From: a virus
IMG/VR virus record: IMGVR_UViG_3300007538_007380
Coordinates: 1-49,140 of that record
Strand: one strand, 5' to 3'
DNA: 49,140 bases
This document shows positions 5,074-41,127 of this stretch, piece by piece. A program made the position numbers and the translations under genes. Below the pieces are notes generated by a model. It ran no database searches and had not been told where the DNA came from. It was given only the letters and a program-made list of their open reading frames with translations. Positions within the stretch are counted from its first letter, which is position 1; every line of letters starts with the position of its first letter.

Positions 5074-5351
5074 TGGATTTTCCATTTACAGAAAAGAAGA
5101 TTAGTGATATATTATTTTTAAGAGAATTCAAAGGAGACGTTGCTTCAGAAGAGTTAGTTTGGCATCAGGACAGAGAAGACCGAAGGATTAAAGTTATTGA
5201 ATCTAATGGATGGATGTTACAGATGGATAATGAACTTCCTGTTCTATTAAAAGAAGGAACTGTTTACAGCATACCAGCCTATGAATTTCATAGAGTTATC
5301 AAAGGCAACGGTACATTAAAGATTATGGTTGAAAAAAATGAAAAACAATAA
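5073..5351 (+). CDS. Small cupin-fold protein
   Basis: 92 aa. The alternation of short beta segments with glycines, and the terminal pattern GTVYSIPAYEFHRVIKGNG, match the second half of a cupin barrel. Similar small proteins occur in marine phages. The usual HxH of the first cupin motif is absent (WHQDRED has one His), so metal binding is uncertain. The start is the TAATGG overlap with the structural gene. The 3' end overlaps the TadE-like gene by 14 nt. Function unknown. Confidence 0.6.
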   Translation: MDFPFTEKKISDILFLREFKGDVASEELVWHQDREDRRIKVIESNGWMLQMDNELPVLLKEGTVYSIPAYEFHRVIKGNGTLKIMVEKNEKQ

Positions 5352-5712
5352 GGGTTCTAATTCTATTGAATTTGCTTTAATTCTACCTGTTTTATTAATA
5401 TTATTAGTTGGTATAATAGAATATGGTTTTTATTTTAATGAAAAACTACAATTTCAAAATTTAATAAATGAAACTTGTGGTGAAGATTATTATGAAAAGG
5501 CAGATTATTTATTTATTGATGTTTATAAACTATGTGGTGAATGTACCGTAGATATGTGGGAAGAAGAAAATTTTATATTTTGTTCTATGGAAAGAGATTA
5601 TAATCAAATGTTTGATTTATTTAATGATAATATGTTTCCAAAATTAATATTTGTAGAAGCTGTTAAAACAAAAGATGACGAAGAAGAAGATACAGCAGAT
5701 ACAGCTTTTTAA
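5338..5712 (+). CDS. TadE-like pseudopilin / membrane-anchored protein
   Basis: 124 aa from the ATG at 5338; a TTG at 5329 would add three residues. The N-terminus is the classic TadE/TadG signature: short and basic, then SIEFALILPVLLILLVGI followed by IEYGFYF, with the glutamate after a small residue as in type IV-like pseudopilins. The rest is acidic with five cysteines (CGECTVD and others), ending in a D/E-rich tail. TadE-like proteins are minor components of Tad (Flp) pili in bacteria, so finding one among phage virion genes is unusual. It could interact with host pili or a secretion machine, or simply be a membrane-anchored phage protein. The family call rests on about 25 residues. Confidence 0.6.
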   Translation: MKNNKGSNSIEFALILPVLLILLVGIIEYGFYFNEKLQFQNLINETCGEDYYEKADYLFIDVYKLCGECTVDMWEEENFIFCSMERDYNQMFDLFNDNMFPKLIFVEAVKTKDDEEEDTADTAF

Positions 5713-11134: not shown

Positions 11135-11521
11135 ATGTCTTGGAAAAGAAAAAGAAGAGTAATTGGTCGCAATACCTACTATAGCATTAGCACAAAGCTT
11201 CGTCAAGAACAAAAATCAAATGATGAATTTGAAGTAATGTTAGCTAATTTATCTTTAGAAGAAATAATTGCTTTAAAATTAGAATTAGCTAGCAAACCTG
11301 TTAATGGAAGACTTTACGGATTTCCCATATGGAAAAACTTGACAGACATAGTTAAGGATGCTATGTTTAGGTATGCCTACTCAGCTACTCGTTCACAACT
11401 AGAAGCTATGAGGTTCTTGGGCCTAAGAGAAGTAGATTTCTTAAAATATAAAAAAAGATATTCTATTATTTCTTATTTTGAAAACGATAAAGGGGATGCA
11501 ACGGCTTCGACAGGGCAATAG
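11135..11521 (+). CDS. Small HTH-like protein overlapping the tmRNA gene
   Basis: 128 aa. Basic N-terminus (MSWKRKRRVIGRNTYY), then LEEIIALKLELASKPVNGRLYGFPIWKN (split here as a conserved LALKLELA-type block and LYGFPIW), then a helical segment RYAYSATRSQLEAMRFLGLR and VDFLKYKKRY that resembles a Fis-like helix-turn-helix. It may be a DNA-binding regulator. The last ten codons and the stop (11519-11521) lie inside the tmRNA gene, which starts at 11492. If the tmRNA 5' end is cut from this transcript, the remaining mRNA has no stop codon. Confidence 0.65.
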   Translation: MSWKRKRRVIGRNTYYSISTKLRQEQKSNDEFEVMLANLSLEEIIALKLELASKPVNGRLYGFPIWKNLTDIVKDAMFRYAYSATRSQLEAMRFLGLREVDFLKYKKRYSIISYFENDKGDATASTGQ

Positions 11522-11953
11522 AAGAGGAAAGTGCAAGCAGTCATGATGACTTTAAAAATCAAAAACAAATTAGTTGCCAATAACAACTCACATTTCGAAG
11601 TAGCTTTAGCAGCATAATCGAGGAGGTTGAATAGTACCTCCTGTCCAAACTATTCAAAACAACAGATAAGTTGTAAAAATTAAAAATGGTTACCCTCATG
11701 GTAAGTAGTAAGGTGGTATTACACAGGGTTCTACTGACAATAAACGACCCGGTTCTAGAAATAAGAGTCAATTATAGGAATACTTGAACACATATAGGTT
11801 TTAATCCTATTACTACATGTAGAGGTGGGCTTCCTAGGCTACATAAGAAGAGGGATTTTGTAGCATACCTTCTAATTGGTTTAATTAGACAAGCTTGTGA
11901 ATGACTTAAATTAGATATCGCTGTGGACGTGGGTTCGACTCCCACCATCTCCA
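11492..11953 (+). ncRNA. ssrA: tmRNA (transfer-messenger RNA), phage-encoded
   Basis: The 5' end GGGGATG pairs with CATCTCC (11946-11952) as a 7-bp acceptor stem with a G3-U70 wobble, the alanine identity element. The conserved 5' segment GGCTTCGACAGGG (11503-11515) and the T-arm GTGGG/TTCGACT/CCCAC (11929-11945) are typical of tmRNA. A11953 is the discriminator; CCA is not encoded. The mRNA-like part starts after TTAGTT with resume codon GCC at 11576. It reads ANNNSHFEVALAA and stops at TAA 11615-11617, ending in the ALAA protease signal. A stem follows directly (11621-11627 with 11636-11642). The molecule rescues ribosomes stalled on broken mRNAs and tags the product for degradation. Its 5' end overlaps the previous gene by 30 nt. 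tmRNA genes are known in a few phages. Confidence 0.95.
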
Positions 11954-11993
11954 TAATATATTTTATTAATTAATTCTTTTTTTATATAAAATA

Positions 11994-12905: not shown

Positions 12906-14273
12906 ATGGCTAAAAAAACATATGTCCTTGATACTAGTGTTTGCCTAACTGATGCTGATAGCATATACAATTATGGCAACAATGATATTATACTTCCTAT
13001 TAAAGTATTAGAAGAAATAGACAAACACAAAAAAAGACAAGATAGTGTAGGTATTAACGCTAGAAAAATAATAAGGTCTCTAGATGAGTTAAGAGCCAAA
13101 GGATCTTTGCAAAATGGTATAAGATTAGGAAAAGGAAAGGGAATAATTAGAGTATCCTCTGCCAGCCCTGAATCTCTTCCAAATTCACTAGATATAACGA
13201 TTCCTGATAATCAGATTATTTCTGTAGCTATATGCGAAGCACAAAAAACTCCAAATATTAAAAAAGTAATTCTTGTTAGCAGAGATATTAATATGCGAGT
13301 TATATGTGATTCGCTTGGTATTACTAGTGAAGATTACGCTGAAAATGAAATTATTAAGAAAGAAACCGGTTTATATCCTGGTTTTTCTACAATTGTAGTG
13401 GATGATCAGACTATAGATCATTTTTATAATGGTGAAAGGATAAAAATTTCTAAAGAAGATAAGAAAGATTTATCACATAACGAATTTGTATTGTTGGTAT
13501 CTTCTTCAAATGAAAAGAAATCTGCTGTTTGTAAATTTATTTCCTATAATGAACCTTTAGAACCTATTAAAGAATTTAAAAAAGGTGTATGGGGAGTTAA
13601 AGCAAGAAACAAAGAGCAAATGTTTGCACTTGATCTATTAATGGATCCAGAAATACAAGTTGTTTCCTTGGTTGGAAAAGCTGGTTCAGGTAAAACTTTA
13701 ATTGCTATCGCGGCAGGATTAGAACAAGTAGTCTCACAACTAGATGCTAAATATGGTTTAGTCGACTATGACAATAAGCCTTCCAAAAAGAAGGCTTATA
13801 AGCGTCTTGTTGTTTCTAGACCCGTTATGCCTATGGGTAAAGATATCGGCTTCCTGCCCGGCACTATGGAAGAGAAAATGGCACCCTGGTTGGCTCCTAT
13901 ACAAGATAACTTGAAGTTCTTAACTGGTGATGACCAAACTACGCTCGATGATTATATGGAAAGAGGCTTAATAGAGATTGAAGCACTTACATATATCAGA
14001 GGAAGATCTATTGCAAATGCGTTTATAATTATAGATGAGGCGCAGAATCTAACAGCACACGAAGTTAAGACAATTTTAACCAGAGTGGGAGAAGGGACAA
14101 AAATAGTATTGACAGGCGATATAGAACAAATAGATAACATCTATGTTAATGAAATGTCTTCTGGTTTAACACACGCAGTAGAAAAAATGAAATCTTATGA
14201 TATAACTGGACACGTTACCTTAAAGAAAGGTGAAAGATCAGAAGTAGCAACATTGGCAGCAAAAGTATTATAA
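12906..14273 (+). CDS. phoH: PIN domain-PhoH ATPase fusion
   Basis: 455 aa. The N-terminal PIN domain (about 4-150) has YVLDTSVCL (D9) and acidic residues typical of PIN RNases. The C-terminal PhoH ATPase has Walker A GKAGSGKT (257-264) and Walker B IIIDEAQN (D377, E378). This PIN-PhoH architecture (PhoH2/YlaK type) is linked to RNA unwinding and cleavage. PhoH-family genes are common in marine phages, often of unclear role. A hairpin sits in the leader, and a clear SD (GGCAGGA) precedes the ATG. The frame is complete. Confidence 0.93.
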   Translation: MAKKTYVLDTSVCLTDADSIYNYGNNDIILPIKVLEEIDKHKKRQDSVGINARKIIRSLDELRAKGSLQNGIRLGKGKGIIRVSSASPESLPNSLDITIPDNQIISVAICEAQKTPNIKKVILVSRDINMRVICDSLGITSEDYAENEIIKKETGLYPGFSTIVVDDQTIDHFYNGERIKISKEDKKDLSHNEFVLLVSSSNEKKSAVCKFISYNEPLEPIKEFKKGVWGVKARNKEQMFALDLLMDPEIQVVSLVGKAGSGKTLIAIAAGLEQVVSQLDAKYGLVDYDNKPSKKKAYKRLVVSRPVMPMGKDIGFLPGTMEEKMAPWLAPIQDNLKFLTGDDQTTLDDYMERGLIEIEALTYIRGRSIANAFIIIDEAQNLTAHEVKTILTRVGEGTKIVLTGDIEQIDNIYVNEMSSGLTHAVEKMKSYDITGHVTLKKGERSEVATLAAKVL

Positions 14274-16394: not shown

Positions 16395-17660
16395 ATGGAA
16401 AAAAAGAAAATATTGGTCATTTCTGACCACCCATTGGCTCCTTCTGGAGTTGGGACACAAACAAATTATGTTATAAGCGCTTTATTGCGTACCGGAAGAT
16501 ATAAAGCCGTTTGCCTAGGTGGCGCGGTTAAACATCATTCTTACGAACCACAAATTATCAAGGGAGAAGAATGGGACGATGGAGATTGGGTAGTTTATCC
16601 TGTTGATGGCTATGGAACCCCAGACATTATCCGTTCTATTCTATGGACAGAAAAACCAGATTTACTTTGGTTTATGACAGACCCAAGATTCTATACTTGG
16701 CTTTGGCAGATTGAAAATGAGGTCAGACCGTTAGTTCCAATGGTTTATTATCATGTTTGGGATAATTATCCTCTTCCACATTTTAATTCAAAATGGTATC
16801 GTTCAACAGATGTTATTGCTTCTATTTCAAAAGTTACATATGATATTGTTAATAAAGTAGCGCCTGAAGTTGAAAATCATTATATTCCACATGCCGTTAA
16901 TCAAGATATATTTAAGAAACTACCAGAAGAGGTAGTTGCACAATTCAAGGAAAATAACTTTCCAGAGCATAATAATAGAATGATCTTTTTCTGGAACAAT
17001 AGAAATGCCAGAAGAAAACAATCAGGTACATTAATTCATTGGTTTAATAAATTTGCAGAAAGAGTAGGTCCTGATAATGTTTGTTTAATAATGCATACAG
17101 ATCCAAAAGATCAAAGCGGACAAGACTTAGAAGCGATACTAAAAAATTTCAATATAGATGATGGAAGAATTGTTATTTCCAGAGATAAAATGCCATCAGA
17201 AGGTTTAGCTCTTATGTATAACATGGCTGATTGCACAATCAATATTGCTGACGCCGAAGGTTTTGGACTAGGTACCTTAGAATCATTATCATGTGGTACT
17301 CCTATTTTTGTTAATATGACTGGTGGCCTACAAGAACAAGTAACAGACGGAAATAATTGGTTTGGTATTGGTTTAGAACCTACTTCTAAATCCATGATTG
17401 GTTCGCAAGATGTTCCTTATATCTACGAAGATAGATTAAACGAAGATCAATTTGTTGATGCTTTACAGACCTTTTACAATACATCCAAAAATGAAAGAGA
17501 CGAAATGGGTAATCTTGGCATAGAACATGTTAATAAAAATTATAATTTCAATACTTTTATTAATAAGTGGATTGAACTAATAGATGATGTTACTGTAAGA
17601 TTAGGTTCTTGGGATACAAGACAAAATTATCAATCTTGGGAATTAAAGGAAATAGTATGA
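16395..17660 (+). CDS. GT4-like glycosyltransferase A
   Basis: 421 aa, with AAGGA before the ATG. The N-terminal Rossmann domain begins ILVISDHPLAPSGVGTQTNY. The C-terminal domain has IFFWNNRNARRKQ and the donor-binding pattern AEGFGLGTLESLSCGTP with a conserved E after GFG, as in GT-B family 4 enzymes. The donor is probably a nucleotide sugar made by the nearby genes, which is inference. It is the first gene of a long translationally coupled operon; its stop overlaps the next ATG (ATGA). Confidence 0.85.
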   Translation: MEKKKILVISDHPLAPSGVGTQTNYVISALLRTGRYKAVCLGGAVKHHSYEPQIIKGEEWDDGDWVVYPVDGYGTPDIIRSILWTEKPDLLWFMTDPRFYTWLWQIENEVRPLVPMVYYHVWDNYPLPHFNSKWYRSTDVIASISKVTYDIVNKVAPEVENHYIPHAVNQDIFKKLPEEVVAQFKENNFPEHNNRMIFFWNNRNARRKQSGTLIHWFNKFAERVGPDNVCLIMHTDPKDQSGQDLEAILKNFNIDDGRIVISRDKMPSEGLALMYNMADCTINIADAEGFGLGTLESLSCGTPIFVNMTGGLQEQVTDGNNWFGIGLEPTSKSMIGSQDVPYIYEDRLNEDQFVDALQTFYNTSKNERDEMGNLGIEHVNKNYNFNTFINKWIELIDDVTVRLGSWDTRQNYQSWELKEIV

Positions 17661-18913
17661 AAAAAACAATTTTGGTTAGAGGTCCCGTTTTAACACAATC
17701 TGGTTATGGAGAGCATACCCGTTTTGTGCTTCGTGCCCTAAGAACTCGCGAGGGTGAGTTTGATATTCATATTCTTCCTACTCGCTGGGGAGAAACTGGA
17801 TGGTTAGCAATAGACGATGAATTTAGAACTTGGGTAGATACTAGGATTAATGCGGCGACAGTGCAATTGCATAATAAAATTCCATATGATATATCTATAC
17901 AAGTAACAATACCGAATGAATGGCAGAAGCTAGCTGCTATTAATATTGGTGTTACTGCTGGCATAGAAACAAACAAAGTCTCACCGGTATGGTTACAACA
18001 AGCAAATTTAATGGATAAAATTATTACTATTTCTGAACATTCTAAGACTGGTTTTGATGTAGTATATACAGGACAACATCCACAAACTGGTCAACCAATT
18101 CAACTTTCAACAAATACTCCAATCGAGGTTTGTCATTATCCAGTTAAGAAATTTGAATCACTACCAGATATTAATTTAGAACTAAAACATGATTTTAATT
18201 ATCTTGTAGTAGCACAGATGGGCCCTAGAAAAAATCTACAAAATTTAATCAAATGGTTCGTTGAAGAAAATTATGATCAAGAAGTAGGTTTAGTAGTTAA
18301 GACAAGTATTAAAAATAATGCTATTGTAGATAGAGATTTTACAACTACTAGTTTATTAAATTCTATTCCGAATATTCCAGATCGTAAATGTAGTGTCTAT
18401 CTTTTACATGGAGATATGACAGATGCAGAAATGCACGCTCTCTATAAACATCCAAAAATAAAGGCTATGGTTTCACTTACGCATGGTGAAGGATATGGTT
18501 TACCTTTGTTTGAAGCAGCCTATAGTGGTCTTCCTATAATCGCTCCTGGATGGTCCGGCCAATGCGACTTCCTATATATGCCTTTTGATTCAAAGTCTAA
18601 GAAAAAGAAACAGAAGATGAAGGCAATGTTCGCTAATGTAGATTATACACTTGGACCAGTACAAGAAAGCGCTGTATGGCAAGGTGTTATTGAAAAGGAT
18701 ACTATGTGGTGTTATCCTGCCGAGGGCTCCTTTAAGACCCGTTTACGTCAAGTAAGAAACTATTATGACAAGTGGTTGGCAAAGGCTGAAGATCTTCAGG
18801 CTTGGGTTTGTGAAGAATTCGAATGGGAAAAGAAGCATGAGGGACTAGCTACGCTCCTAGACCAAGAATGTAATTCTTTGTCTGCTCAGGAAGAAGGATT
18901 TATGGTACTTTAG
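17657..18913 (+). CDS. GT4-like glycosyltransferase B
   Basis: 418 aa from ATG 17657 (MKKTILVRGPV), after AAAGGAAA; the frame is open further upstream, but only to a TTG. The N-terminal GxxxxSGYGEHTRFVLRAL resembles family 4 acceptor domains. QMGPRKNLQNLIKWF and then GEGYGLPLFEAAYSGLP form the donor-site pattern. A WCYPAEGSFKTRLRQ region follows. It overlaps its upstream neighbour by 4 bp. Likely acts in the same glycan as its two paralogues. Confidence 0.83.
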   Translation: MKKTILVRGPVLTQSGYGEHTRFVLRALRTREGEFDIHILPTRWGETGWLAIDDEFRTWVDTRINAATVQLHNKIPYDISIQVTIPNEWQKLAAINIGVTAGIETNKVSPVWLQQANLMDKIITISEHSKTGFDVVYTGQHPQTGQPIQLSTNTPIEVCHYPVKKFESLPDINLELKHDFNYLVVAQMGPRKNLQNLIKWFVEENYDQEVGLVVKTSIKNNAIVDRDFTTTSLLNSIPNIPDRKCSVYLLHGDMTDAEMHALYKHPKIKAMVSLTHGEGYGLPLFEAAYSGLPIIAPGWSGQCDFLYMPFDSKSKKKKQKMKAMFANVDYTLGPVQESAVWQGVIEKDTMWCYPAEGSFKTRLRQVRNYYDKWLAKAEDLQAWVCEEFEWEKKHEGLATLLDQECNSLSAQEEGFMVL

Positions 18914-20137
18914 ATGAAAAATGTTGTGTTTATAGGACAAGTTACTGACATTTCCGGCTACGGAAACGCAGCTAGAAGCTATTTGCAAAGTCTTTTGGCG
19001 TTACACACAGAAGGAAAGATCAGTTTAAAAATTATTAACTTTTCGTTTGAAAAAGCAAAAGTTGAAATTAGTAAAGAAATCGAGCATCTGTTTTTAAGCG
19101 AACAACAAGTAAGAGATATTTTATTTGAAGAATATGAAGTAATTTTCTTTTTAACAAATGACAACCTCCTTCTAGGAAAGGATAGGGAGGAGTTATTTTT
19201 TGGTTGGTTTGGAAAAATAAGACCAAATCTTTATAAAGTCTGTAAAAATGCAAAAAATCTTTTTCCATGTGTCGTATGGGAGACTGAAAAGGTTCCTTTA
19301 GGCGTTCAAAACGCATATCAAGAATTTAAAAATATAAATACATTATTGTGTGCATGTTCGTGGAATAAGGATGTATTTCTAAAGCAAACAGGTATTCCGT
19401 GCGTAGTAATCCCATACACGCTTGTAGGGTCAGGGACAACATTTGATGCATCCACGTTTCAAAGGCTTACAGAGATTAAAGACGAAAGATTTTCTTTCTG
19501 CTCTGTCTCCCAATGGGGATACAGGAAAGGTTTCGACATACTGATAAAATCTTTTCTCATAGAGTTTCAAGATGATCCAGTTGATTTAGTCCTAAAAACA
19601 TATATTAATAAAGCCTTTACTTTTAAGGATGAAACATCTATAATAAAAAAAGAGATAGATGACATTAAGGCAAAGCTTTTTCTTAACCAAGTAGAACCAC
19701 AGTGCAGGATCATTGTTATAAACTCTCTTATGAAAAAGGAAGAAATAAACTCTATCTATAGAAGTTCAGATTGTTATGTCACCTGTACTCGCGGCGAAGG
19801 CTTTGGGCTACCAATAGCAGAATTTATAAATTTTTCAAAACCTGTGATCGTTCCAGATAAGGGTGGCCACTTGGATTTTTGTTCGAGAGAAAACTTCTTT
19901 ATAGAAAGTAGATACGAGCCTTTTACGGAACCCCCGCACACTCTTTATGAGCCTAGAATGAGAATTGTAGAGTCAAGTATGTCTTCTACAATGGAAAAAA
20001 TGCGAGAAGCATATAACCTGTTTAAACAAGACAATGAGACTTACTTAGAAAGAGGTAAAAAGTCTAGAGAATTTTTATCAAATTACTTAGATGCCAAGCA
20101 GAATACAAAACTTTTTAAAAAGCTATTGGAGAAATGA
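18914..20137 (+). CDS. GT4-like glycosyltransferase C
   Basis: 407 aa. VVFIGQVTDISGYGNAARS begins a GT-B N-terminal fold; GYRKGFDILIKSF and TRGEGFGLPIAEFINFSKP mark the donor domain, and a PHTLYEPRM-type loop follows the FGGH-like HLDFC region. Codon usage is less AT-biased than in the flanking structural genes. The stop overlaps the start of the dehydratase gene. Confidence 0.82.
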   Translation: MKNVVFIGQVTDISGYGNAARSYLQSLLALHTEGKISLKIINFSFEKAKVEISKEIEHLFLSEQQVRDILFEEYEVIFFLTNDNLLLGKDREELFFGWFGKIRPNLYKVCKNAKNLFPCVVWETEKVPLGVQNAYQEFKNINTLLCACSWNKDVFLKQTGIPCVVIPYTLVGSGTTFDASTFQRLTEIKDERFSFCSVSQWGYRKGFDILIKSFLIEFQDDPVDLVLKTYINKAFTFKDETSIIKKEIDDIKAKLFLNQVEPQCRIIVINSLMKKEEINSIYRSSDCYVTCTRGEGFGLPIAEFINFSKPVIVPDKGGHLDFCSRENFFIESRYEPFTEPPHTLYEPRMRIVESSMSSTMEKMREAYNLFKQDNETYLERGKKSREFLSNYLDAKQNTKLFKKLLEK

Positions 20138-21111
20138 TGGAAAAAATTGCTGTTGTTAGCGGAGTAACCGGTCAAGACGGGAGTTACCTTACTGAATTGT
20201 TACTGAAAAATAACTACACAGTAGTTGGCCTAGAAAGAAGAACAGTATGCGAAAATGCAGACAAAAGAAAAAACATCAGCCACTTACTAGAAAATAAAAG
20301 ATTCATCCTGGAAGATGCAGATGTTAGCGATTTTGCGTCCATTCAACGTATCATTTCTGAATATAACCCAGAAGAAGTGTATAACCTAGCTGCGCAATCA
20401 CATGTTGGTAATAGTTTTAAAACTCCTATTTCAACAAGTCAAATAAACTACTTCGGCTGTTTGAACTTTTTGGAATCAATCCGACTAACTAACCCAAAAA
20501 TAAAGTTTTACCAAGCCTCTACCTCGGAAATGTTCGGTGATAATATAAAGTGCCCGCAGAATGAAAACACTACATTCTCCCCAGTGTCGCCATACGCTTG
20601 TGCAAAGTTGGCCTCACACCATGTTGTGGGTACTTATCGAAAATCATATGGTATTTTTGCTTGTTCTGGAATCCTATTTAACCATGAATCGCCCCGACGA
20701 GGTGAGGATTTTGTAACCAGAAAGATAACAAAAGCAGCGGCAAGAATTAAACTCGGATTGCAAGATGAATTAAGGCTAGGAAATTTAGAGGCTCAAAGAG
20801 ATTGGGGTTTTGCAGGTGACTACGTTGAGGCAATGCATTTAATGCTACAGCACCACTGTCCAGATGATTATGTTGTTGCTACAGGTGAAACAAATTCAGT
20901 TAAACAATTTTTGCATTATATATTTGATTATGCTGGACTTGATGTAGAAAAGTATGTTATTATAGATCCAAAGTTCTATCGTCCATGTGAAGTACCAAAA
21001 CTATGGGGAGATCCGTCCAAGGCAAGAAGAATTCTCGGATGGGAACCAAAAGTTACCTTTAAAGAACTGGCAATTATGATGTATGAAGAGGAATTAAAAA
21101 GTTTAAAATGA
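20134..21111 (+). CDS. gmd: GDP-mannose 4,6-dehydratase
   Basis: 325 aa. The NAD(P)-binding motif GVTGQDGSY, AAQSHVGNSF, the STSEMFG loop and YACAK (catalytic Tyr/Lys) are as in Gmd, and NHESPRRGEDFVTRKI is nearly diagnostic of this family. It converts GDP-mannose (or, in relatives, GDP-manno-heptose) to the 4-keto-6-deoxy sugar. No dedicated reductase or epimerase of the Fcl type is seen in the window, so the keto sugar may be finished by host enzymes or by the nearby cupin. Start at ATG 20134, overlapping the previous stop (ATGA). Confidence 0.93.
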   Translation: MMEKIAVVSGVTGQDGSYLTELLLKNNYTVVGLERRTVCENADKRKNISHLLENKRFILEDADVSDFASIQRIISEYNPEEVYNLAAQSHVGNSFKTPISTSQINYFGCLNFLESIRLTNPKIKFYQASTSEMFGDNIKCPQNENTTFSPVSPYACAKLASHHVVGTYRKSYGIFACSGILFNHESPRRGEDFVTRKITKAAARIKLGLQDELRLGNLEAQRDWGFAGDYVEAMHLMLQHHCPDDYVVATGETNSVKQFLHYIFDYAGLDVEKYVIIDPKFYRPCEVPKLWGDPSKARRILGWEPKVTFKELAIMMYEEELKSLK

Positions 21112-21785
21112 CAGATTTTAGTTTTTGTATCATTACTGATAATAGCGTAGAAGCTTGCGAAAGAATAGTGCACATGGCACAATCAATTCTTGATCTGAAT
21201 ATTCCAAATTATGAAATATTAGTGATTGGTGGGCGAGGAAATAATTTTACAAGCGATATTTCTAGATTTAATATGCGTAAGTTTGATTTCGATGAGTCCA
21301 TCAGAAGAGCGTGGATAACGAAGAAAAAGAACACAATTGTTAAGAAGTGTAAATATGAGAATGTTGTAATGATGCATGACTACTTTCTCTTTCACAAAGA
21401 CTGGTATGTTCATTATAATAAATTCTTTAAAGAGAATGATTATGACGTATGCTGTAATCCAATTACTATGATAAACGGAGCGAGGGATTACACTGACTGG
21501 ATTTTGTGGGACCACCCAGAATATCGAAAACAATCTACTATTCCGTATTCCGATTGGGATAAAACAAAATGGCAATATATTAGTGGCGGCTACTTCTTGA
21601 TAAAGAAGCAATTCATGATTGATAATCCATTTAATGAAGAACTCGTAGCTGGAGATGAAGAAGATGTTGAGTGGAGTCTAAGAATCAGACAAAAGGCTAA
21701 AATTATATGTAATCCAGATTCACATGTCAGGCACAGCAAACGACATAGAAACATGACGATTAATGCACGGAGTAGGATGATATGA
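21108..21785 (+). CDS. GT2-like glycosyltransferase
   Basis: 225 aa. FSFCIITDNS starts a GT-A-type domain. MMHDYFLFHKDWY carries a DxD-like acidic site, and AGDEEDVEWSLRIRQKAKI matches the acceptor-side ED-x-E motif of family 2 enzymes. A short C-terminal HxxH region (HSKRHRN) ends the protein. It sits between the dehydratase and the phosphatase genes with ATGA overlaps on both sides. Confidence 0.72.
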   Translation: MTDFSFCIITDNSVEACERIVHMAQSILDLNIPNYEILVIGGRGNNFTSDISRFNMRKFDFDESIRRAWITKKKNTIVKKCKYENVVMMHDYFLFHKDWYVHYNKFFKENDYDVCCNPITMINGARDYTDWILWDHPEYRKQSTIPYSDWDKTKWQYISGGYFLIKKQFMIDNPFNEELVAGDEEDVEWSLRIRQKAKIICNPDSHVRHSKRHRNMTINARSRMI

Positions 21786-22306
21786 TCAAGTTAGTTATTT
21801 TAGATATTGATGGTGTCTTGACTGATGGCAGAAAATACTATGGGATAGACGGGATTCCATATAGTAAAACATACTGCGACAAAGATTTTACAGCAATTAA
21901 AAGAATGAGAGGATCTGGTGTTGAAGTGTGCTTCTTGTCCGGTGATGAAAGAGTAAACAAGGCTATGGCAAGTAATAGAAACATACCATTTTATTCTGCT
22001 CGTGGAAAAGACAAGGCAGAATTTGTAGAAATATATGAAAAACATTATAATGTTTCTAGAAAAGAGATGCTTTATATTGGTGATGACCTGTTTGATAAAA
22101 GCATTATGGAACAGGTTGGGCACGCATATTGTCCCAGTGACGCTTGCAGAGATATAAAAATGCTCTGCGGAGAAGCAAACACTCTATCAAATAAAGGTGG
22201 TCACAATGCAATTTGTGAATTATTTGATATCTTGTTAGATAGAAAGCTCATATCTGATTGCACAATGAAAGAAGTTGAAAATCTAGATAAAAAGGAAATG
22301 TTTTGA
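21782..22306 (+). CDS. KdsC-like HAD phosphatase
   Basis: 174 aa. HAD motif I DIDGVLTDG (D8, D10), motif II S53 (FLSGDE), the KDKAE lysine region (about 76-80) and motif IV GDDLFD (D101, D102) are complete. Size and lack of a cap domain match the C0 KdsC type, which removes phosphate from sugar phosphates such as KDO-8-P or related acids. In this operon it would dephosphorylate a sugar phosphate intermediate between kinase and nucleotidyltransferase steps, which is inference. Confidence 0.85.
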   Translation: MIKLVILDIDGVLTDGRKYYGIDGIPYSKTYCDKDFTAIKRMRGSGVEVCFLSGDERVNKAMASNRNIPFYSARGKDKAEFVEIYEKHYNVSRKEMLYIGDDLFDKSIMEQVGHAYCPSDACRDIKMLCGEANTLSNKGGHNAICELFDILLDRKLISDCTMKEVENLDKKEMF

Positions 22307-25262: not shown

Positions 25263-25276
25263 ACAAAGGGACTAAA

Positions 25277-31728: not shown

Positions 31729-34700
31729 ATGGCTAAAAAGAAAAATAATCAAGGTAGGGAAAGCTTCGAAGCGTTTGCTGGGGATGAGAGTTTAAATATA
31801 GCAAACAGAGGAGCAGAGAAGAGTTTAAGAAAAAAAGCACAAGAATTTCTTGGAAATCCGAAAGGCGATAATGAGAAACAGAGACCACCAGCACGGAGCG
31901 CAGCACCTATGGCTGGTTCGGAAACGGCCATAGAAGCTTTCAAATTTCTAGAATGTGACCCGCTTATCCCAGGAGAAGAACCAGAACCTTGTCCGATTTG
32001 TCAAGAAAACCCATTTGCTTATGTCCCTGATTTTACCTTGATGGAAAATGGTGAAGTTTTCTTTGATGGAAAAAGGTGTTTACAAAGTATCGTTTTGACC
32101 GTCCCTTCACCAATATTAGAAGGACCAGATTATACAGAATTAAATAATCCAGCTTATATTCTTTCGAAAAAGGCAGAAGGTATTCGTTTAATTTTAGATT
32201 ATTATAATAAATCTGACATAGCAACTGTTTATTATTATGTTGAAAATGATAGTAAAGAGGGAGCAGGAGATACAATAGCTCAAGTGATAGGTGGACCTGC
32301 CGGCGAACAGGCCGTTGCACTATCCGCATTTATCCCAGTTATCCCAAACCCAATTCCAGGATATCAATTAGTTTCTGAGGAGAGAAATGTAGTTGAAGAA
32401 CTCCTACAATATACAGAATACGAATTTAGAATTCCAATTCAACAAAAAGCACAATCAAGAATTTTAATTTCAATACCCGTAGAATATTTAGACCGTTGCC
32501 CCGATAAAGCAATAACAGAACCAAAAACAATCTTTCAAACAGATTTGGAAGTTACAATTAATGGCGATGACTTTAAGCCATTCTTTCGAAGAGTCAATAA
32601 GGCATTTAGATTTTATCACAAACAACTACAACGTTGGTCTACTTTAGAAGGTGGAAAATTAGTAGAATTAACTGATAATGGTGAGCCAGGACCATCTGTA
32701 TTTCTTAATTTAGATACAGAGGCCAATTTAATTGATACATTCCAAAATACAATAGAGAATTTTATAGAAGATATAGGCTTATCGGTAGATCAATTTAAAC
32801 CAGCAAAATTAATAGAAAAAATAGTTTTAAAATTTGAACCAAAAGAAGATGCTAAACAAGGGATAAAATTAAAAGAGATTATTTTAAATAAACCTGGTTG
32901 TCCAGATATTGTTTTTAATGAGGTAAATGCTGATACAAGAGCAAAATTTATTCAACTCTTAAAACAAGCACCTATGGGCGAAAGTAGAACACTTTATTAT
33001 ATTGGTGCTTTACCAGAAATGGATATTGATTTAACTGCTTTAACTCCTGTACCATGGCTTGAATTTATAACAAAATATACTTGGCCAGGTTTACAAGTTT
33101 TTTATGGCGATAATTCAAATTCTATGTTGAATGATCCAACAATGGCAGCGTGTCTAGCATCTAGTACTTTTAATGCTGAATCTGACCAGACCGTAGATCA
33201 ATTTATGTCTTTTGTTTCTGATACTGCTTTGAGTTTACCAGATGCTATATTAGATAAGTTTTCACAAAATACTTGTTTAACTAGAGAAGATAAATTTAAA
33301 AATCCTTTTGAAGATTTTGATTCTATAGAAATAGCATTAGAAGAAGCAAAGAAAAGAATTGCTGGTGATAATCCTTATTTACAGAACTTTTTTAACACAT
33401 TAATAACTTCTTTGGCTATAACTGTCACACCACTTCCAGAACAAGATAGAGGAAAAGGGATCAAAAAAGGATTACAAAACTACATTTGGGAAGATTTTTT
33501 TGATCGCTTGAAATGGTGCGGTTGGATTTCATTAATGCTCAAGGCAGTTGAGTGTGTATCACAAAATCTTGGTGTTGAAGATGCACAAAAGGCATTGGTA
33601 GAAGCGGCTTTTAATGCTATGGAAACTGCTCATGTAGAACGTGTTTTAATAGGTTTACCACCTGAAGCACAACAAGCTGTTTTTGATTCTTTAGAAGAAG
33701 AACTAAAAAAATTACCTGCTCCTTGGGATCCTAACGGTTTAAATTCTATAGATTTACTGGGAAGACCAGAAGTAGGACAATCTCCTTATGAATATGTAGG
33801 AGAACGAATAAAGGAATACCTTTCTGATTCTTCAGGAGAAGAACCAGAAATATCAACTGCTCTTTCGAATACTAACGCTATTCCGTCAGCAGCCGGACAG
33901 TCTTTATTTGGTACTTCTTATAGCTCTGAAACAGGACAATTTTCATTTGGTTCGCAATCGAAAGGCTCTGGTGGTTCCTACGGCACAGCTTTAGGGAACG
34001 TACAAAAAGATATTGTTGATGCCTATAGAAATGCCGCATTACAAGCTGTCGGCGCCGACGTTTTATTAGAACAGATTAATAAACTTCCTGGAGCACCGAT
34101 AGTATCTAATTTCATCAAGCATATTCCTTGTAAACCAGTTCCTCCAATAGCGTTTGATCCAAGATTAGATTCATTTTTAAATACATTAGCGTTAGATTTT
34201 AATTTAGAAGAATGTAAATTTACAACTGATATTACAACGCCAAAATTACTTAGGATTGGTATTGGTAATCCGTTAGATTTATTAGCAAAATTGGCTAAAA
34301 TGGCATTGGAGGCGATTTTAGAAGCAGCATTGGCTATTGTTGTTAAAGCAATAATTTTAATATTAGAAAAACTATTTTCTTTAGCATGTGATATTCTATC
34401 TACACTTGGGGCGAATTTATTAGATCTTATCGATGGAAGTGATAAATTTAAAGATCTTTTAAAAGAAAATATGTGTCCAGACGCAACGGACGAACAACTT
34501 TATGACAGCTTAAAAAACATATTTGCTTCTGTTGGCGGTCCAGAATCAGATTGTTTAAGAACTCTTGCTAATGATGAAATGGCTAAGTTTATACAAGATG
34601 TTTCTTTAATGATGACACAAGGTCAATTAATACAATTATTAGAAGGAAATCCATCAAAAGAAACCCTACAACTTGCTAAAGAAGTAGCTGCTGTATCAGA

Positions 34701-37700
34701 TTCACAATGTATTCGCGATGTTTTTGGAGACGGAACAGCATTTAATAATCTTTTTCCAGCAGTTGCAAAGCTTATTCCCAATCTACAAGAAATAAAAGAT
34801 AATTTAGGAAGCTTTGATTTAAATCGTCCAATCTACCCATGCCCTCCTGAAGCAAAGAATAGAATAAACGAAATCAAGTGTAATCTACTACAAGAAAAAG
34901 GTTTATCACCTGAACAATGTAGAGAAGAACTAGCAAAATCTAGAGAACAAGCACTTTCAGATTTAAATGATTTATTAAATAATTTACAGAACGGTCCTCT
35001 AGCTAATTTCCCGCCTTTGGTTGGAGAACCAGGGGAATGCGCTAATGACGGATTTTTCCCGGCTATTGATCCTATGCAGGCTGATTTATCTGCTAGTATA
35101 ACGGAAAGCTTATTCCAAAAGATAGAAATAAAACATTTAAATGATTTATTAGATAATATAAATCCCTTTACTGGACAGGCTGGTGTTTTAAATATGATCC
35201 TTTCTGATACGAAAGGTAGGTCTTTAAAAAGGCACAATACTTGGGTGCGTTTCTTCGGGTCTCCATTAGCAAATGAATTAGGTTTTTTTGAAAGTTGGTC
35301 CGATGATGCTATTCGTAAACCAACCGGAGATGGACCAGTACCAGGAAATGATAATGTTCCTATTAATATTTATGGTGAAGAATTAAGTGGTGATTTAGGA
35401 GGAAAACAAACCTTTTTTGGTTATTCAGAAGGCGGATTTCCTCCAACAGTCGGTGCTTGGATGGCAAAACAATTAAGAGAACTCAACCCAGAATTCAAAA
35501 CAATTATAACACCGGAAGGGTTTGCAACTCTTGGAGATGCTAAAAATGCTTATAATACTATTGATTTAATCAATAAAAGCAGAATAGCAAATCGTTCGCG
35601 ATATGTAGAAGGATTTATAAATGAATTTGAATTAACAAATAATCCTTCCATGTTAGGTATGGTTCAAAATATTCGAGTCGCATTATCTGGTTCAGATTTG
35701 TTTATCAAAAGTGAAGATCCAAAAAAACAACCAGATTCAATCTCAAAAGATAGTGCGCAAGAAATAGTGAGAAATATTTTAAACGGTGAAAAAGTTAAAA
35801 TAAACGGTGAAACAATAGCAAATGCTAGCGAGAATACTCCGTCTAAATGGTCGACTTTTAATAAAGCATTCGTAGAAACAGAAGGAGAAATATTCACAAC
35901 TTTCTATGATGCACGAGAAGAATATGATTTAGTAACATATCCAGATACTTCTTCGGCAGATATAAGATTGAAATATAATTCATATCCGGAAAATAGTGGA
36001 GATGAAAGTGCTTTGCCGGGCTGGGAATATGAAATTCAATTAGATTATAACATGACTGATGATGAAGGAAATATTATACCAACAAACGAATACAATTTAA
36101 AAATTGTTGAAACTTCTCGTACTTCTGGGGCGGGAGGTGCAGAAGCAAGAAAAGAAAGAAGAAAACTAGAGAAATCAGGTGAATTACCTCCAGATTCTAT
36201 TTTAGAAGAAGGAGAATATGTTTTTACAAAACACGACATAACAACAAAAAACATTATTGATGGACAAATTGAAAAATATATTTCTTCATTAGAAATAAGT
36301 GATGTGGTAAAAGATTCTTATCAAATAGAAACATTTTATAGATTTTTAGCAAATCGTATTTTAGAAGCAACAGACGATCAAAAATTTGTAAAATTAGAGA
36401 TATTACAACCAGAATTTAGAGATTATTTTGCTAAAGGTTCTGGTGGGAAAGACCGTCTATACGATAGAATATCGAATGCATTTATTAAAAGAATTTCTAC
36501 AGTTGTTTCCACCGGTAAAGTAGATTATACTTTGCAAGAGGAACCAGAAGTAGAAAATGAACCAGGATTTTTAGAACCTGAAATACCAGATACTACAGTT
36601 GAACCAGAGCTTTCTAATACAGAAGAGAAGATTGCCGATGGTATTGATCTAGATGCAATTTCACCAGCATTCCATTTTGGTTATGACCCATATAAAGAAC
36701 CAGAAGTTATATTCCTTGATAATGAAACTTATGGTGGTTTATTAGGTAGATTATTCCCTGATAAGGTACCTCCACCTTTTTATGTCGGAGAACCAAAATA
36801 TACTGGATGGATGGATATTATGAATATTCTCGTACCAGAAGTTAATGGTTGTGAGCCCGCAAGTAAACAAATTTTTAATCTTGAAGATTTGATACAAAAA
36901 GCATCTGATTTAGCAAATCAACTCTTGCCAGATGAAAGATTGAATTATGATGTATTTTGTTCTCAAGAAGCTCCATTTGATAAAATAATGAATACTGCCG
37001 ATGCAGCAGATTTAGATAGTGCAATTAGAGCAATCATCCGCATCTATTTGGTAGATGTGTTTATCAGAGGAATTCCATCTTTTACAATATTCGCATTAAA
37101 TTCAGATAATTTTGGTGGCGTTTTAGAATCATTTATGGCCGATAGAATAAAGCAAGGTCTTTATGACGACGGCGCCGCTCGTTCTGGAAGAACAGATGAT
37201 ATGTATTATTATAAAGTTCTAGAACAATGTGTAAATACTATTGCAAGGAAAATTAAATCAGGTATTCTTACATTGGAAGAATTAAACAGTGAAGAAAGAG
37301 AAGCATTTACAATAATAGAACAGAAAGTATTAGAGTTCTATAATTTGAATGACGGTGCTTTAGGTGCTCTTTCTACAGCAGCTATTAAAAGTCAATCTAT
37401 GTTCCGTAGAACTTTTTCTACTACTGCTGCTTCTGAATATGTTGGGTTAGGAGCAGGTAGTACACAATTTAGTAAAACTGCTGCCAAGAAAGCAAAAGAA
37501 ATAGAATTTATATCAATGTTAGAAGAAACAGAACAATATGCAAATGTTCTATTCAAAAGATATATTCGTGAAGAATTTGAAGCAGTTTCTGAACTTTTTA
37601 ATGGTAAATTACAATCTTCTGTTTCGAATATTCATCATCTTTTCTTATTAAACGATACATGGATACGCGGAGGAGTTTTCGGAGGCGGTCCTTTCGATGT

Positions 37701-38880
37701 AATGTCAAACCCAAATGATTCTACAACTTACAACATCACAACTGGTGTTTCTACAAGTGTACAGAGTGCATTTGATAAACTAGGCGAAATTGGTGACTTA
37801 TTGGGGCAAGCAGTCTCAGAACAATTAGACGAATGGCCTTTTGTTCTTGAAAAATACATCATGGTAGAAGATAAATTTGTTCAACCATCCGAAGTACAAA
37901 GAAAAGAAAATTTATATAATATTATCAATATAAATGATTGGAAAGAGTATATAGATGAATTAAAATCTGACGGTTTAGAAGGATTTATTTCTGATTTTTG
38001 GGGTAATCCTGAAATAACTGGAGAGACATTATTAGAACAAGAACATACACATGAATACAGAATAGACGAAGAAGGTAATGGTAGAGCATTTGAATATTGC
38101 GGAGTAAGCGGACAATGCCATTATCATCGTATTATAAATGGTGTAATACAGGAAGCTGAAGGTGATAATGGACTACACACACATGAGATGGATATAATCG
38201 GTTGGAAATTTGGTTTAAGAATTTGTTATGTTCCAGAAAAGGATAAAAATAACATTTTCTCTTCGATGATTGATACAATTGGTAATGAAACAATAATGCT
38301 ACAAAAGGCTTATAAGTTAGCAAACCCAGAAGGAGGAGAGACTTATATGATTCCATTAGCCTCTGTTGAATTACCAATACCAGACCAAGATTTTACCTTA
38401 TTTGAACCTGATAGTTATGATGTATTCTGTTTAATCCAAGAACTAATTAAAACACCAGAATACAAAACTATGTTTAAATATGTTTTCCCACTTTCTACTT
38501 ATAACTCTATGATTGCTTTATATACTATTATGGGATTTTTTGATTCAATTGGTAATAGTGGATATCCCAATGACGGAGGAGATATGTGGGAAGTTCCTGG
38601 CGGAAGAAGAGGAAAAGGCTTTAGAAAATGGGTAAGGGGTCCGGGAACATTTAAAGCAACGCGGAGAGTAGCAAGAAATATTTTCTTAAACCTCTATGAC
38701 GCTACTCAAGATGTAGATTTTAGTGGAGACAGTTTAGATAATAATGAAGATACTAATCCGGTAGACAATATTCGTTCATTATTGCGACCAAAGGTAAACT
38801 TTGAAGATGGTCTGCGTTGGTGGCAAAGAGGAAGAAGAATAACACAAAAACCATTTAATCTAGATGGTGAAGAATGCTAA
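31729..38880 (+). CDS. Giant virion structural protein (2383 aa)
   Basis: One of two giant genes here, 7.15 kb, complete. Alternating globular acidic stretches without enzyme motifs. Several Cys pairs (CPICQENPF near residue 85). Hydrophobic stretch about residues 850-890 (LAKLAKMALEAILEAALAIV). Near the C-terminus three HxH pairs (H2106/2108, H2131/2133, H2150/2152) lie within HTHEYRIDEEGNGRAFEYCG and HYHRII and HTHEMD. This matches metal-binding HxH clusters of phage tail-tip proteins. It immediately precedes gp25-like and gp6-like baseplate genes, so it is probably a baseplate or tail-hub component. No sequence relative with known function is recognised. Confidence 0.75.
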   Translation: MAKKKNNQGRESFEAFAGDESLNIANRGAEKSLRKKAQEFLGNPKGDNEKQRPPARSAAPMAGSETAIEAFKFLECDPLIPGEEPEPCPICQENPFAYVPDFTLMENGEVFFDGKRCLQSIVLTVPSPILEGPDYTELNNPAYILSKKAEGIRLILDYYNKSDIATVYYYVENDSKEGAGDTIAQVIGGPAGEQAVALSAFIPVIPNPIPGYQLVSEERNVVEELLQYTEYEFRIPIQQKAQSRILISIPVEYLDRCPDKAITEPKTIFQTDLEVTINGDDFKPFFRRVNKAFRFYHKQLQRWSTLEGGKLVELTDNGEPGPSVFLNLDTEANLIDTFQNTIENFIEDIGLSVDQFKPAKLIEKIVLKFEPKEDAKQGIKLKEIILNKPGCPDIVFNEVNADTRAKFIQLLKQAPMGESRTLYYIGALPEMDIDLTALTPVPWLEFITKYTWPGLQVFYGDNSNSMLNDPTMAACLASSTFNAESDQTVDQFMSFVSDTALSLPDAILDKFSQNTCLTREDKFKNPFEDFDSIEIALEEAKKRIAGDNPYLQNFFNTLITSLAITVTPLPEQDRGKGIKKGLQNYIWEDFFDRLKWCGWISLMLKAVECVSQNLGVEDAQKALVEAAFNAMETAHVERVLIGLPPEAQQAVFDSLEEELKKLPAPWDPNGLNSIDLLGRPEVGQSPYEYVGERIKEYLSDSSGEEPEISTALSNTNAIPSAAGQSLFGTSYSSETGQFSFGSQSKGSGGSYGTALGNVQKDIVDAYRNAALQAVGADVLLEQINKLPGAPIVSNFIKHIPCKPVPPIAFDPRLDSFLNTLALDFNLEECKFTTDITTPKLLRIGIGNPLDLLAKLAKMALEAILEAALAIVVKAIILILEKLFSLACDILSTLGANLLDLIDGSDKFKDLLKENMCPDATDEQLYDSLKNIFASVGGPESDCLRTLANDEMAKFIQDVSLMMTQGQLIQLLEGNPSKETLQLAKEVAAVSDSQCIRDVFGDGTAFNNLFPAVAKLIPNLQEIKDNLGSFDLNRPIYPCPPEAKNRINEIKCNLLQEKGLSPEQCREELAKSREQALSDLNDLLNNLQNGPLANFPPLVGEPGECANDGFFPAIDPMQADLSASITESLFQKIEIKHLNDLLDNINPFTGQAGVLNMILSDTKGRSLKRHNTWVRFFGSPLANELGFFESWSDDAIRKPTGDGPVPGNDNVPINIYGEELSGDLGGKQTFFGYSEGGFPPTVGAWMAKQLRELNPEFKTIITPEGFATLGDAKNAYNTIDLINKSRIANRSRYVEGFINEFELTNNPSMLGMVQNIRVALSGSDLFIKSEDPKKQPDSISKDSAQEIVRNILNGEKVKINGETIANASENTPSKWSTFNKAFVETEGEIFTTFYDAREEYDLVTYPDTSSADIRLKYNSYPENSGDESALPGWEYEIQLDYNMTDDEGNIIPTNEYNLKIVETSRTSGAGGAEARKERRKLEKSGELPPDSILEEGEYVFTKHDITTKNIIDGQIEKYISSLEISDVVKDSYQIETFYRFLANRILEATDDQKFVKLEILQPEFRDYFAKGSGGKDRLYDRISNAFIKRISTVVSTGKVDYTLQEEPEVENEPGFLEPEIPDTTVEPELSNTEEKIADGIDLDAISPAFHFGYDPYKEPEVIFLDNETYGGLLGRLFPDKVPPPFYVGEPKYTGWMDIMNILVPEVNGCEPASKQIFNLEDLIQKASDLANQLLPDERLNYDVFCSQEAPFDKIMNTADAADLDSAIRAIIRIYLVDVFIRGIPSFTIFALNSDNFGGVLESFMADRIKQGLYDDGAARSGRTDDMYYYKVLEQCVNTIARKIKSGILTLEELNSEEREAFTIIEQKVLEFYNLNDGALGALSTAAIKSQSMFRRTFSTTAASEYVGLGAGSTQFSKTAAKKAKEIEFISMLEETEQYANVLFKRYIREEFEAVSELFNGKLQSSVSNIHHLFLLNDTWIRGGVFGGGPFDVMSNPNDSTTYNITTGVSTSVQSAFDKLGEIGDLLGQAVSEQLDEWPFVLEKYIMVEDKFVQPSEVQRKENLYNIININDWKEYIDELKSDGLEGFISDFWGNPEITGETLLEQEHTHEYRIDEEGNGRAFEYCGVSGQCHYHRIINGVIQEAEGDNGLHTHEMDIIGWKFGLRICYVPEKDKNNIFSSMIDTIGNETIMLQKAYKLANPEGGETYMIPLASVELPIPDQDFTLFEPDSYDVFCLIQELIKTPEYKTMFKYVFPLSTYNSMIALYTIMGFFDSIGNSGYPNDGGDMWEVPGGRRGKGFRKWVRGPGTFKATRRVARNIFLNLYDATQDVDFSGDSLDNNEDTNPVDNIRSLLRPKVNFEDGLRWWQRGRRITQKPFNLDGEEC

Positions 38881-39330: not shown

Positions 39331-41127
39331 ATGGCCAAAAGAAATGTACCTATACGCTATACTAGTAGAGACTTTGATTCAATAAGAACAGACCTCATTG
39401 AATACGCAAAGCGATATTATCCAGATACATTCCAAGATTTTAGCGAAGCTTCTTTTGGTTCATTAATGTTAGATACAGTAGCCTATGTAGGCGATATTAT
39501 GTCTTTTTATTTAGATTATCAAGTTAATGAATCTTTCATAGATACAGCGGTAGAATATGATAATATTATCCGTTTGGCTCAACAAATGGGCTATCGCCAC
39601 AAAGGTTCAGACTCCTCTACTGGTATGGTATCTTTTTATGTTATTGTACCGGCTAACACTACTGGTTTAGGACCAAATAACTCTTATTTACCTATTCTTA
39701 AAAGAAATACCGTTGTTTCTTCTGCTGGTGGAGGTAGTTATATTTTAACCGAAGATGTAAGATTCGATAATCCAAATAACGATGTTGTAGCTGCTACTGT
39801 AGATTCAGCAACAGGAATTCCAACCAGCTATGCTATAAAAGCACAAGGTCAGGTTATTTCCGGTCGTTTTGGAGTAAAAAACATTGATATTGGAGCTTTT
39901 GAGCGTTTTCGAAAAGTCTCTTTGGGTATTGCTAATATAGTTGAAATTATAAGCGTATTTGATTCTGAAGGAAATGAATATTATGAGGTAGAATATCTCA
40001 CACATGATGTAGTCTATAAAGCAGTACCTAATAAAGATGAAAATACAAGAGAAAATGTACCTTCTTTATTAAGACCGTTTGTTGCAGCGCGAAGATTTAT
40101 TACAAATAAAACTAGAACAAACTTTTTTCTTCAATTTGGATATGGTTCAGACTCACAGATATCTACTCCTACTTTAGCAGAACCTTCAAATACAATTCTA
40201 CAAAGACACGCTAAAGATTATACTACTGATATTGCATTCGACCCATCAGATTTATTAGGTACAGATAAACTTGGAATTGGTCCGGCAAATACAACTTTAA
40301 CAATTACTTATAGATTAAATACTTCTAATTCTGTGAATGCTGCTGTAAATTCTATAACCAACATAAATAATCCAATTGTAGAATTTAATGACCCTACAAT
40401 TGCCGGTTCTGCTACTGCTAGAACAGTTATCAACAGTATTGAATGCTCTAACGAAGAGCCAATAGTAGGCTCAGTAAGAGAACCAAATGTAGAAGAAATA
40501 AGAATGCAGGCTATGAATTTATTTCCTTCTCAAAATAGAGCAGTAACATCAACCGATTATGAAGCAATTGCTTACGCTATGCCTTCTTATTATGGCTCGA
40601 TTAAAAGATGCAGAGTGGTCAGAGATCAAGATTCTCTAAAAAGAAACTTAAATTTTTATATTATTTCTGAAGACGTTAGAGGAAAATTAATTCAATCAAA
40701 TTCAGCTTTAAAAGAAAACTTAAAAATTTGGCTAAATAAATATCGAATGATTAATGATACCGTAGATGTTTTAGATGCCAAAATAGTAAATATTGGGATT
40801 ACTTTTGAAGTAATAGCAAACGAAGAAGTTAATCGTTATGAGGTATTGGATAACGCAATTCGTGCTTTAAGGAATAAATTCTCACGGACAATGTTTATAG
40901 GCGAAAGATTTTATTTAACAGATGTTTATACAGAACTAAATAAAGTAAGAGGAGTTGCTGATACTGCTAAAGTAAAAATAATCAATAAAACAAGTGGCAA
41001 CTATTCATCATCAGCGTTTAATATAAATCAATTTACTTCTTTAGATGGTCGCTATATTTCGGTACCTGATAATGTAATTTTAGAAATAAAACACCCAGAT
41101 ATAGATATTAAAGGAACTGTAAGATAA
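39331..41127 (+). CDS. gp6-like baseplate wedge (baseplate J-like) protein
   Basis: 598 aa. RYTSRDFDSIRTDLIEYAK, FGSLMLDTVAYVGDIMSFYLDY and VTSTDYEAIAYAMPSYYGSI are typical of T4 gp6/baseplate J-type proteins, which form the backbone of the baseplate wedge. The order gp25-gp6 and the TAATG overlap with the next gene support the call. Confidence 0.9.
   Translation: MAKRNVPIRYTSRDFDSIRTDLIEYAKRYYPDTFQDFSEASFGSLMLDTVAYVGDIMSFYLDYQVNESFIDTAVEYDNIIRLAQQMGYRHKGSDSSTGMVSFYVIVPANTTGLGPNNSYLPILKRNTVVSSAGGGSYILTEDVRFDNPNNDVVAATVDSATGIPTSYAIKAQGQVISGRFGVKNIDIGAFERFRKVSLGIANIVEIISVFDSEGNEYYEVEYLTHDVVYKAVPNKDENTRENVPSLLRPFVAARRFITNKTRTNFFLQFGYGSDSQISTPTLAEPSNTILQRHAKDYTTDIAFDPSDLLGTDKLGIGPANTTLTITYRLNTSNSVNAAVNSITNINNPIVEFNDPTIAGSATARTVINSIECSNEEPIVGSVREPNVEEIRMQAMNLFPSQNRAVTSTDYEAIAYAMPSYYGSIKRCRVVRDQDSLKRNLNFYIISEDVRGKLIQSNSALKENLKIWLNKYRMINDTVDVLDAKIVNIGITFEVIANEEVNRYEVLDNAIRALRNKFSRTMFIGERFYLTDVYTELNKVRGVADTAKVKIINKTSGNYSSSAFNINQFTSLDGRYISVPDNVILEIKHPDIDIKGTVR

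Follow-up and report, generated by a model that had tools for sequence, protein, structure and literature searches.

A complete one-piece tmRNA gene with its own tag in an uncultured lineage of tailed phages

The tmRNA gene and its genomic setting

The window analysed here (positions 1-49,140 of the IMG/VR record IMGVR_UViG_3300007538_007380, from an uncultured phage) is a fragment of 49,140 bases that carries a tmRNA gene between an open reading frame (ORF) of 128 amino acids and a gene for a PhoH-like ATPase (Table 1). A tmRNA releases stalled ribosomes and marks their incomplete products for degradation. Using cmscan, we matched the Rfam tmRNA family RF00023 to 11492-11956 on the + strand with 76.8 bits (E 3.6e-28), compared to a gathering score of 47 bits. 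The match spans positions 1-374 of the 374 in the model and is not cut off, as for a complete gene with both ends present. Its final three bases (TAA) fall outside the molecule, which ends at the discriminator A at 11953 and has no encoded CCA. Because 11492-11498 pairs fully with 11946-11952 and is followed by this discriminator, the boundaries that the initial annotation had proposed for a complete tmRNA (11492-11953) are exact to the base, and the covariance search that it had suggested as a check returned a full-length molecule. The order along the strand (5' acceptor, tag, 3' acceptor) is unpermuted and rules out a two-piece tmRNA. A second, weak RF00023 match at 44836-44885 (11.7 bits) lies within a long ORF (42629-49138) and is spurious. 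The window yielded no riboswitch match, and a search of the tmRNA vicinity revealed neither an intrinsic terminator nor an outstanding promoter.

Table 1. Features of the tmRNA locus and other genes of the window (window coordinates)
Feature	Position	Strand	Evidence
Upstream 128-aa ORF	11135..11521	+	homologues 5' of the tmRNA in many relatives
tmRNA (ssrA), one-piece, 462 nt without CCA	11492..11953	+	full-length RF00023 match; covariation in 48 homologues
Acceptor stem, 5' strand GGGGATG, carries G3 of G3-U70	11492..11498	+	7/7 pairs standard
Helix H2, 5' strand GCAAGC, partner 11893-11898	11533..11538	+	100% of cells paired, 48 homologues
PK1, stem 1 AGTC/GACT, stem 2 TGAT/ATCA	11539..11561	+	8/8 pairs standard
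Tag CDS ANNNSHFEVALAA and TAA stop	11576..11617	+	translation; third-position excess in relatives
PK2, GGAGG/CCTCC and TTGAATAG/CTATTCAA	11622..11657	+	covariation
Small hairpin ACAAC/GTTGT	11659..11674	+	81.3% paired; 5/5 pairs with double changes
Candidate PK3, AGTAG/CTACT and GGGTT/GACCC	11704..11750	+	pairing search only
Candidate PK4, CTTC/GAAG and GCTACA/TGTAGC	11828..11864	+	pairing search (stem GCTACA/TGTAGC)
Closing hairpin TCTAAT/ATTAGA	11871..11889	+	89.5% paired; 6/6 pairs with double changes
Helix H2, 3' strand GCTTGT	11893..11898	+	pairing in window; covariation in homologues
T arm GTGGG TTCGACT CCCAC	11929..11945	+	100% paired; 4/5 pairs with double changes
Acceptor 3' strand and discriminator A; TAA next, no CCA	11946..11953	+	pairing
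PhoH-like ATPase, downstream syntenic marker	12906..14273	+	PHROG 2765, E 3.9e-113
ORF of 2,383 aa, 5' of the baseplate genes	31729..38880		no Pfam match
Baseplate wedge protein	39331..41127		

The window copy scores below its relatives (76.8 versus 103-127 bits), and its stretch from PK2 to the 3' domain is longer by about 100 bases, with candidate folds. Candidate PK3 falls within the added segment, which accounts for the greater length of this copy; the pairings of candidate PK4 are also visible in one relative (L195). ARAGORN called no tmRNA at 11492-11953, yet it called 24 of the 25 relatives' tmRNAs above the family cut-off. The one it missed (L106) is the longest of those 25 (431 nt without CCA), and length may also be the cause of the miss of the 462-nt window copy. 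ARAGORN thus misses at least some long tmRNA forms, and pipelines relying on it would overlook the window gene.

The baseplate wedge protein, the PhoH-like ATPase, the long ORF without a Pfam match, a PD-(D/E)XK nuclease and glycosyltransferases make up a gene content that points to a tailed, T4-like myophage with a probably large genome. Phage_integrase was found in none of 42 records (the window and 41 relatives). The nearest matches of the nuclease gene are in Flavobacterium phages at 28% identity, too distant to name the host. Elsewhere in the window, glycosyltransferases cluster with a GDP-mannose 4,6-dehydratase, an RpiB-like isomerase, a transketolase N-terminal domain and a sulfotransferase (16395-26965) in a sugar-modification island. 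Two other regions (1618-2064 and 5329-5712) encode CAAX protease-like (Rce1) and TadE-like small proteins, which are unusual for a phage.

The end of the 128-aa ORF runs into the tmRNA gene, which thereby contains the stop codon of the ORF (TAG, 11519-11521). The C-terminal half of the 128-aa protein is HTH-like in some relatives (best match HTH_8, E 2.6e-4); a domain search of the window copy returned no HTH match. The stop of the upstream gene also falls inside the tmRNA in L033, L050, L051 and L053, and other upstream ORFs likewise end within it in L133, L137 and L177. In the closest relatives, L003 and L058, the upstream ORF ends exactly before the first base of the tmRNA, which leaves the idea of a conserved regulatory-loop overlap unsupported. 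More speculatively, since the upstream stop lies inside the tmRNA, cleavage by RNase P at 11491/11492 would leave the upstream mRNA nonstop and, hence, a substrate of the tmRNA itself. The idea bears a formal likeness to the case of ArfA, where cleaved or prematurely terminated transcripts become nonstop messages that tmRNA handles (PMC8012679).

Selection on the RNA and on its tag

The structure that we tested (acceptor, T stem, H2, both stems of PK1 and of PK2, and two hairpins) is that of the window copy, where all 50 pairs are standard, and we examined it in an alignment of 48 non-redundant homologous tmRNAs. Most of the homologues were found through a tag pattern, so the test of the RNA is unbiased by structure. 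Across the alignment, 87.8% of the cells were paired compared to 74.0% in shuffles, and the covariation score was 0.413 versus 0.170 in shuffles, which do not keep relatedness, and 0.04-0.11 in slid controls, which do. Compensatory changes on both sides were present in 39 of the 50 pairs, pseudoknots included. In PK2, 11 of the 13 pairs showed such changes and the remaining two, both G-C, are invariant. PK1, which sits just 5' of the resume codon, is the weakest-supported helix set, with stems paired in 72.6% and 63.5% of cells and double changes present; alignment gaps are partly responsible for these values. The third acceptor pair, G3-U70, is the element by which tmRNA, like tRNA-Ala, is recognised for alanine. 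It is G-U in all 48 homologues, while the next four pairs down the stem covary. The window tmRNA is real and almost certainly functional, and the pattern of change in its relatives indicates a working gene under selective maintenance.

The tag starts at the resume codon GCC (11576) and runs through 11614 (GCC AAT AAC AAC TCA CAT TTC GAA GTA GCT TTA GCA GCA) to a TAA stop at 11615-11617, reading ANNNSHFEVALAA. To examine selection on this frame we used a separate set of relatives, which had been selected through PhoH independently of their tags. The 13-aa tags differed 154, 46 and 365 times at codon positions 1, 2 and 3, respectively (pairwise counts, which are not independent), and the codon differences, also counted pairwise, were synonymous in 296 cases versus 161 non-synonymous. 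Among 21 distinct tag sequences from the same PhoH-chosen relatives, 19 end in LAA. Both the codon-position pattern and the LAA ends are what a translated degradation tag would predict, and the coding selection seen in relatives supports the initial reading that the phage tmRNA has a tag of its own. One relative stands apart: at L068:988-1355, which adjoins seven tRNA genes, the tag read by ARAGORN is GNDNNQFALAA. Its resume codon is one for Gly, and both its initial residue and its terminus differ from those of all other relatives.

Distribution of the tmRNA and of its tag class

A search with PhoH fetched 80 viral loci at 60-78% identity. A tmRNA scoring above the family cut-off was present in 25 of the 50 PhoH-relative records examined, and its position is kept even where PhoH identity falls to about 60%. 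In relatives with both markers, the tmRNA follows the homologue of the 128-aa gene and precedes phoH; it is sometimes followed by genes for tRNA-Ile(TAT), tRNA-Arg(TCT) and tRNAs for Leu, Asn and Thr. Five loci (L013, L039, L040, L043 and L068) hold a tRNA island in this interval, with or without the tmRNA (content: Ile-TAT, Arg-TCT, Leu-CAA, Asn-GTT, Thr-TGT and Pro-TGG). The PhoH tree grouped the window with L003, L058 and L004 (support 97/90), and the smallest well-supported set around it (99/88) comprises eight rows, seven of them tmRNA carriers and one unknown. Both neighbour genes are kept and the tmRNA is absent in L011, L012 and L014-L016, which are related branches of the PhoH tree, and in L063 and L069, so some hosts or conditions allow the phage to do without the tmRNA. 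The simplest reading of this distribution is an old presence with losses; repeated acquisition at a single site is a less simple alternative.

In INPHARED, neither the window tmRNA (beyond its T arm) nor the tmRNAs of two relatives had a match; the sole matches to the window gene were pieces of the 3'-end T arm near the starts of Listeria phage records. No near-relatives of the tmRNA or of the 128-aa gene were found among sequenced phages. The lack of an INPHARED match beyond the T arm places the window tmRNA in an uncultured lineage.

To map the distribution of the tag class, we searched for the pattern TT-ANNN-x-[NDHY]-F-(1-4 aa)-LAA-TAA, which misses non-fitting tags, including those of some relatives. 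Among 2.9 million viral contigs the pattern recovered 109 stretches, compared to seven in 84,980 bacterial and archaeal species genomes (257 billion bases). Three of these seven are on contigs of phage origin (L114, L118 and L119) and four are in spirochaetes, where the tag is a shorter, 11-aa form (ANNNGNFALAA); the two spirochaete loci that we checked have no gene in common with the viral loci. Within the collections searched, the 13-14-aa form of the tag is, judging by these matches, known only from viruses. L118 (DQKQ01000192.1, in a Flavobacteriales MAG bin) and L119 (PBIO01000025.1, in a Halobacteriovorax MAG bin) are contigs of a related kind of phage, with phage-type tags and many genes in common with the viral loci. 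The L119 contig and the viral record of L134 have the same length (101,404) and carry an identical tag. In the Halobacteriovorax MAG that includes L119, a second tmRNA on a separate contig encodes a strongly dissimilar tag (ANNDFAPAMAA).

The tag that looks closest to that of the window, ANNNANFDVALAA, is the 'WOR-3' one (L114). It lies on a phage fragment of about 5.6 kb that is enclosed by two 100-N scaffold gaps in a MAG, just after a homologue of the 128-aa gene (55% identity). In CP070664.1, deposited as a WOR-3 chromosome, the tmRNA piece (1261719-1267356, with the 128-aa gene) and a phoH-to-glycosyltransferase piece (1484906-1489526) are separate fragments, each bounded by 100-N gaps, and these phage pieces of the window lineage are likely the result of mis-scaffolding. 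As the pieces are separate and gap-bounded, we reject WOR-3 as a host or prophage carrier.

The proposal that the host could be guessed by comparing the tag with bacterial tags was not borne out, as in the 84,980 species genomes searched the class was found only on contigs of phage origin and, in its shorter form, in four spirochaetes. Given its near absence from bacterial genomes and the different tag of Halobacteriovorax itself, the tag does not name a host; either the hosts are unsampled or the phage tags have diverged from those of their hosts. Divergence would be taken further if the phages had retuned the tag, so that ANNN-x-H/N/Y-F-...-LAA were a phage-evolved degron whose middle is read by host adaptors and proteases differently from the host tag. 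We regard this as a tentative and rather unlikely possibility. Were it so, the fate of the products rescued in infection would be set by the phage.

Ribosome rescue and alternative roles

Phage tmRNAs are already known: ten were listed in an earlier report (PMC4131195), a tmRNA database of 2025 holds 79 unique phage sequences (PMC11915505), and 402 of 18,146 phage genomes carry one (PMC9004378). The window gene resembles these 402 in being phage-borne, a likeness of kind. With bacterial one-piece tmRNAs (RF00023) it shares a full-length match, the G3-U70 acceptor, T arm, H2, PK1, PK2, the GCC resume codon and the ALAA tag end; unlike them, it is carried by a phage, encodes no CCA, is longer than its relatives and has a tag class not found in bacterial chromosomes except for the shorter spirochaete form. 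The Methylophilales phage Melnitz also has a tmRNA in a T4-like myophage, yet its molecule is two-piece, of the alphaproteobacterial kind and accompanied by a glutamine riboswitch, whereas that of the window is one-piece (PMC9004378). The tmRNAs of huge phages likewise come from large uncultured phages, in that case with SmpB (PMC7162821). Here, we found no SmpB gene in 50 related records (fragments of 50-293 kb), in a search that was positive for control bacteria. It is less expected that the gene is so deeply conserved and that its tag class is nearly confined to viruses.

We consider it highly probable that the gene encodes a genuine one-piece tmRNA, inherited vertically with losses in uncultured tailed phages and serving host-dependent ribosome rescue and tagging. 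The tmRNA would presumably be transcribed together with its neighbour genes, host RNase P and 3' nucleases would process its ends, and CCA would be added by a host enzyme, since none is encoded. Host AlaRS could then charge the molecule with alanine via G3-U70 and, with host SmpB, it would enter ribosomes stalled on cut or degraded mRNAs in infection. The ribosome would switch to the GCC resume codon, add (A)ANNNSHFEVALAA and be released at UAA, and the LAA end may direct the product to ClpXP-type proteases. Because neither SmpB (in 50 records) nor an integrase (in 42) was found, the host presumably supplies SmpB, AlaRS and ClpXP to the RNA; expression, charging, SmpB use, rescue and proteolysis are inferred. 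The expected benefit is that ribosomes would be freed and amino acids recycled when the infection or a host defence cuts mRNAs. The earlier suggestion of rescue or tagging during infection is consistent with an intact RNA and an apparently translated LAA tag, and stands as the best reading of the sequence.

Delivery of the tag, more than rescue, could be the purpose, with truncated host or phage proteins degraded for amino-acid recycling, as suggested for phage Melnitz (PMC9004378). Maintenance of the LAA ends and coding frame agrees with such a role, but one reaction yields both outcomes, making them inseparable by sequence, and we judge an emphasis on tagging improbable. A phage RNA that titrates host SmpB or competes with the host tmRNA would need no reading frame, yet the tag frame, LAA end and pseudoknots are all maintained. 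Such a decoy without rescue is quite improbable, even though host SmpB must be shared if the phage has none and DS6A-like molecules inhibit tmRNA (phage DS6A has a TLD-only tmRNA for which a decoy or inhibitor role was proposed; PMC4131195; PMC11915505). Although host ssrA is a common integration site that leaves fragments in prophages (PMC9004378), and the Listeria phage matches are 3'-end pieces, a functionless copy of host ssrA captured at integration is extremely improbable for a gene that is complete at both ends, conserved in position, heavily compensated in 48 homologues (unexpected of a dead copy) and found in a set of 42 records free of integrase.

These results show that one large uncultured phage lineage has long kept a tmRNA under selection, with a tag repertoire of its own, and that the gene is no recent acquisition. 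The tag is unusable as a simple host label; within MAGs, tags of this kind can serve to point out contigs of phage origin. The locus also makes two questions testable: what a phage gains from bringing its own ribosome rescue, and whether phage and host tags send their products to different protease fates.
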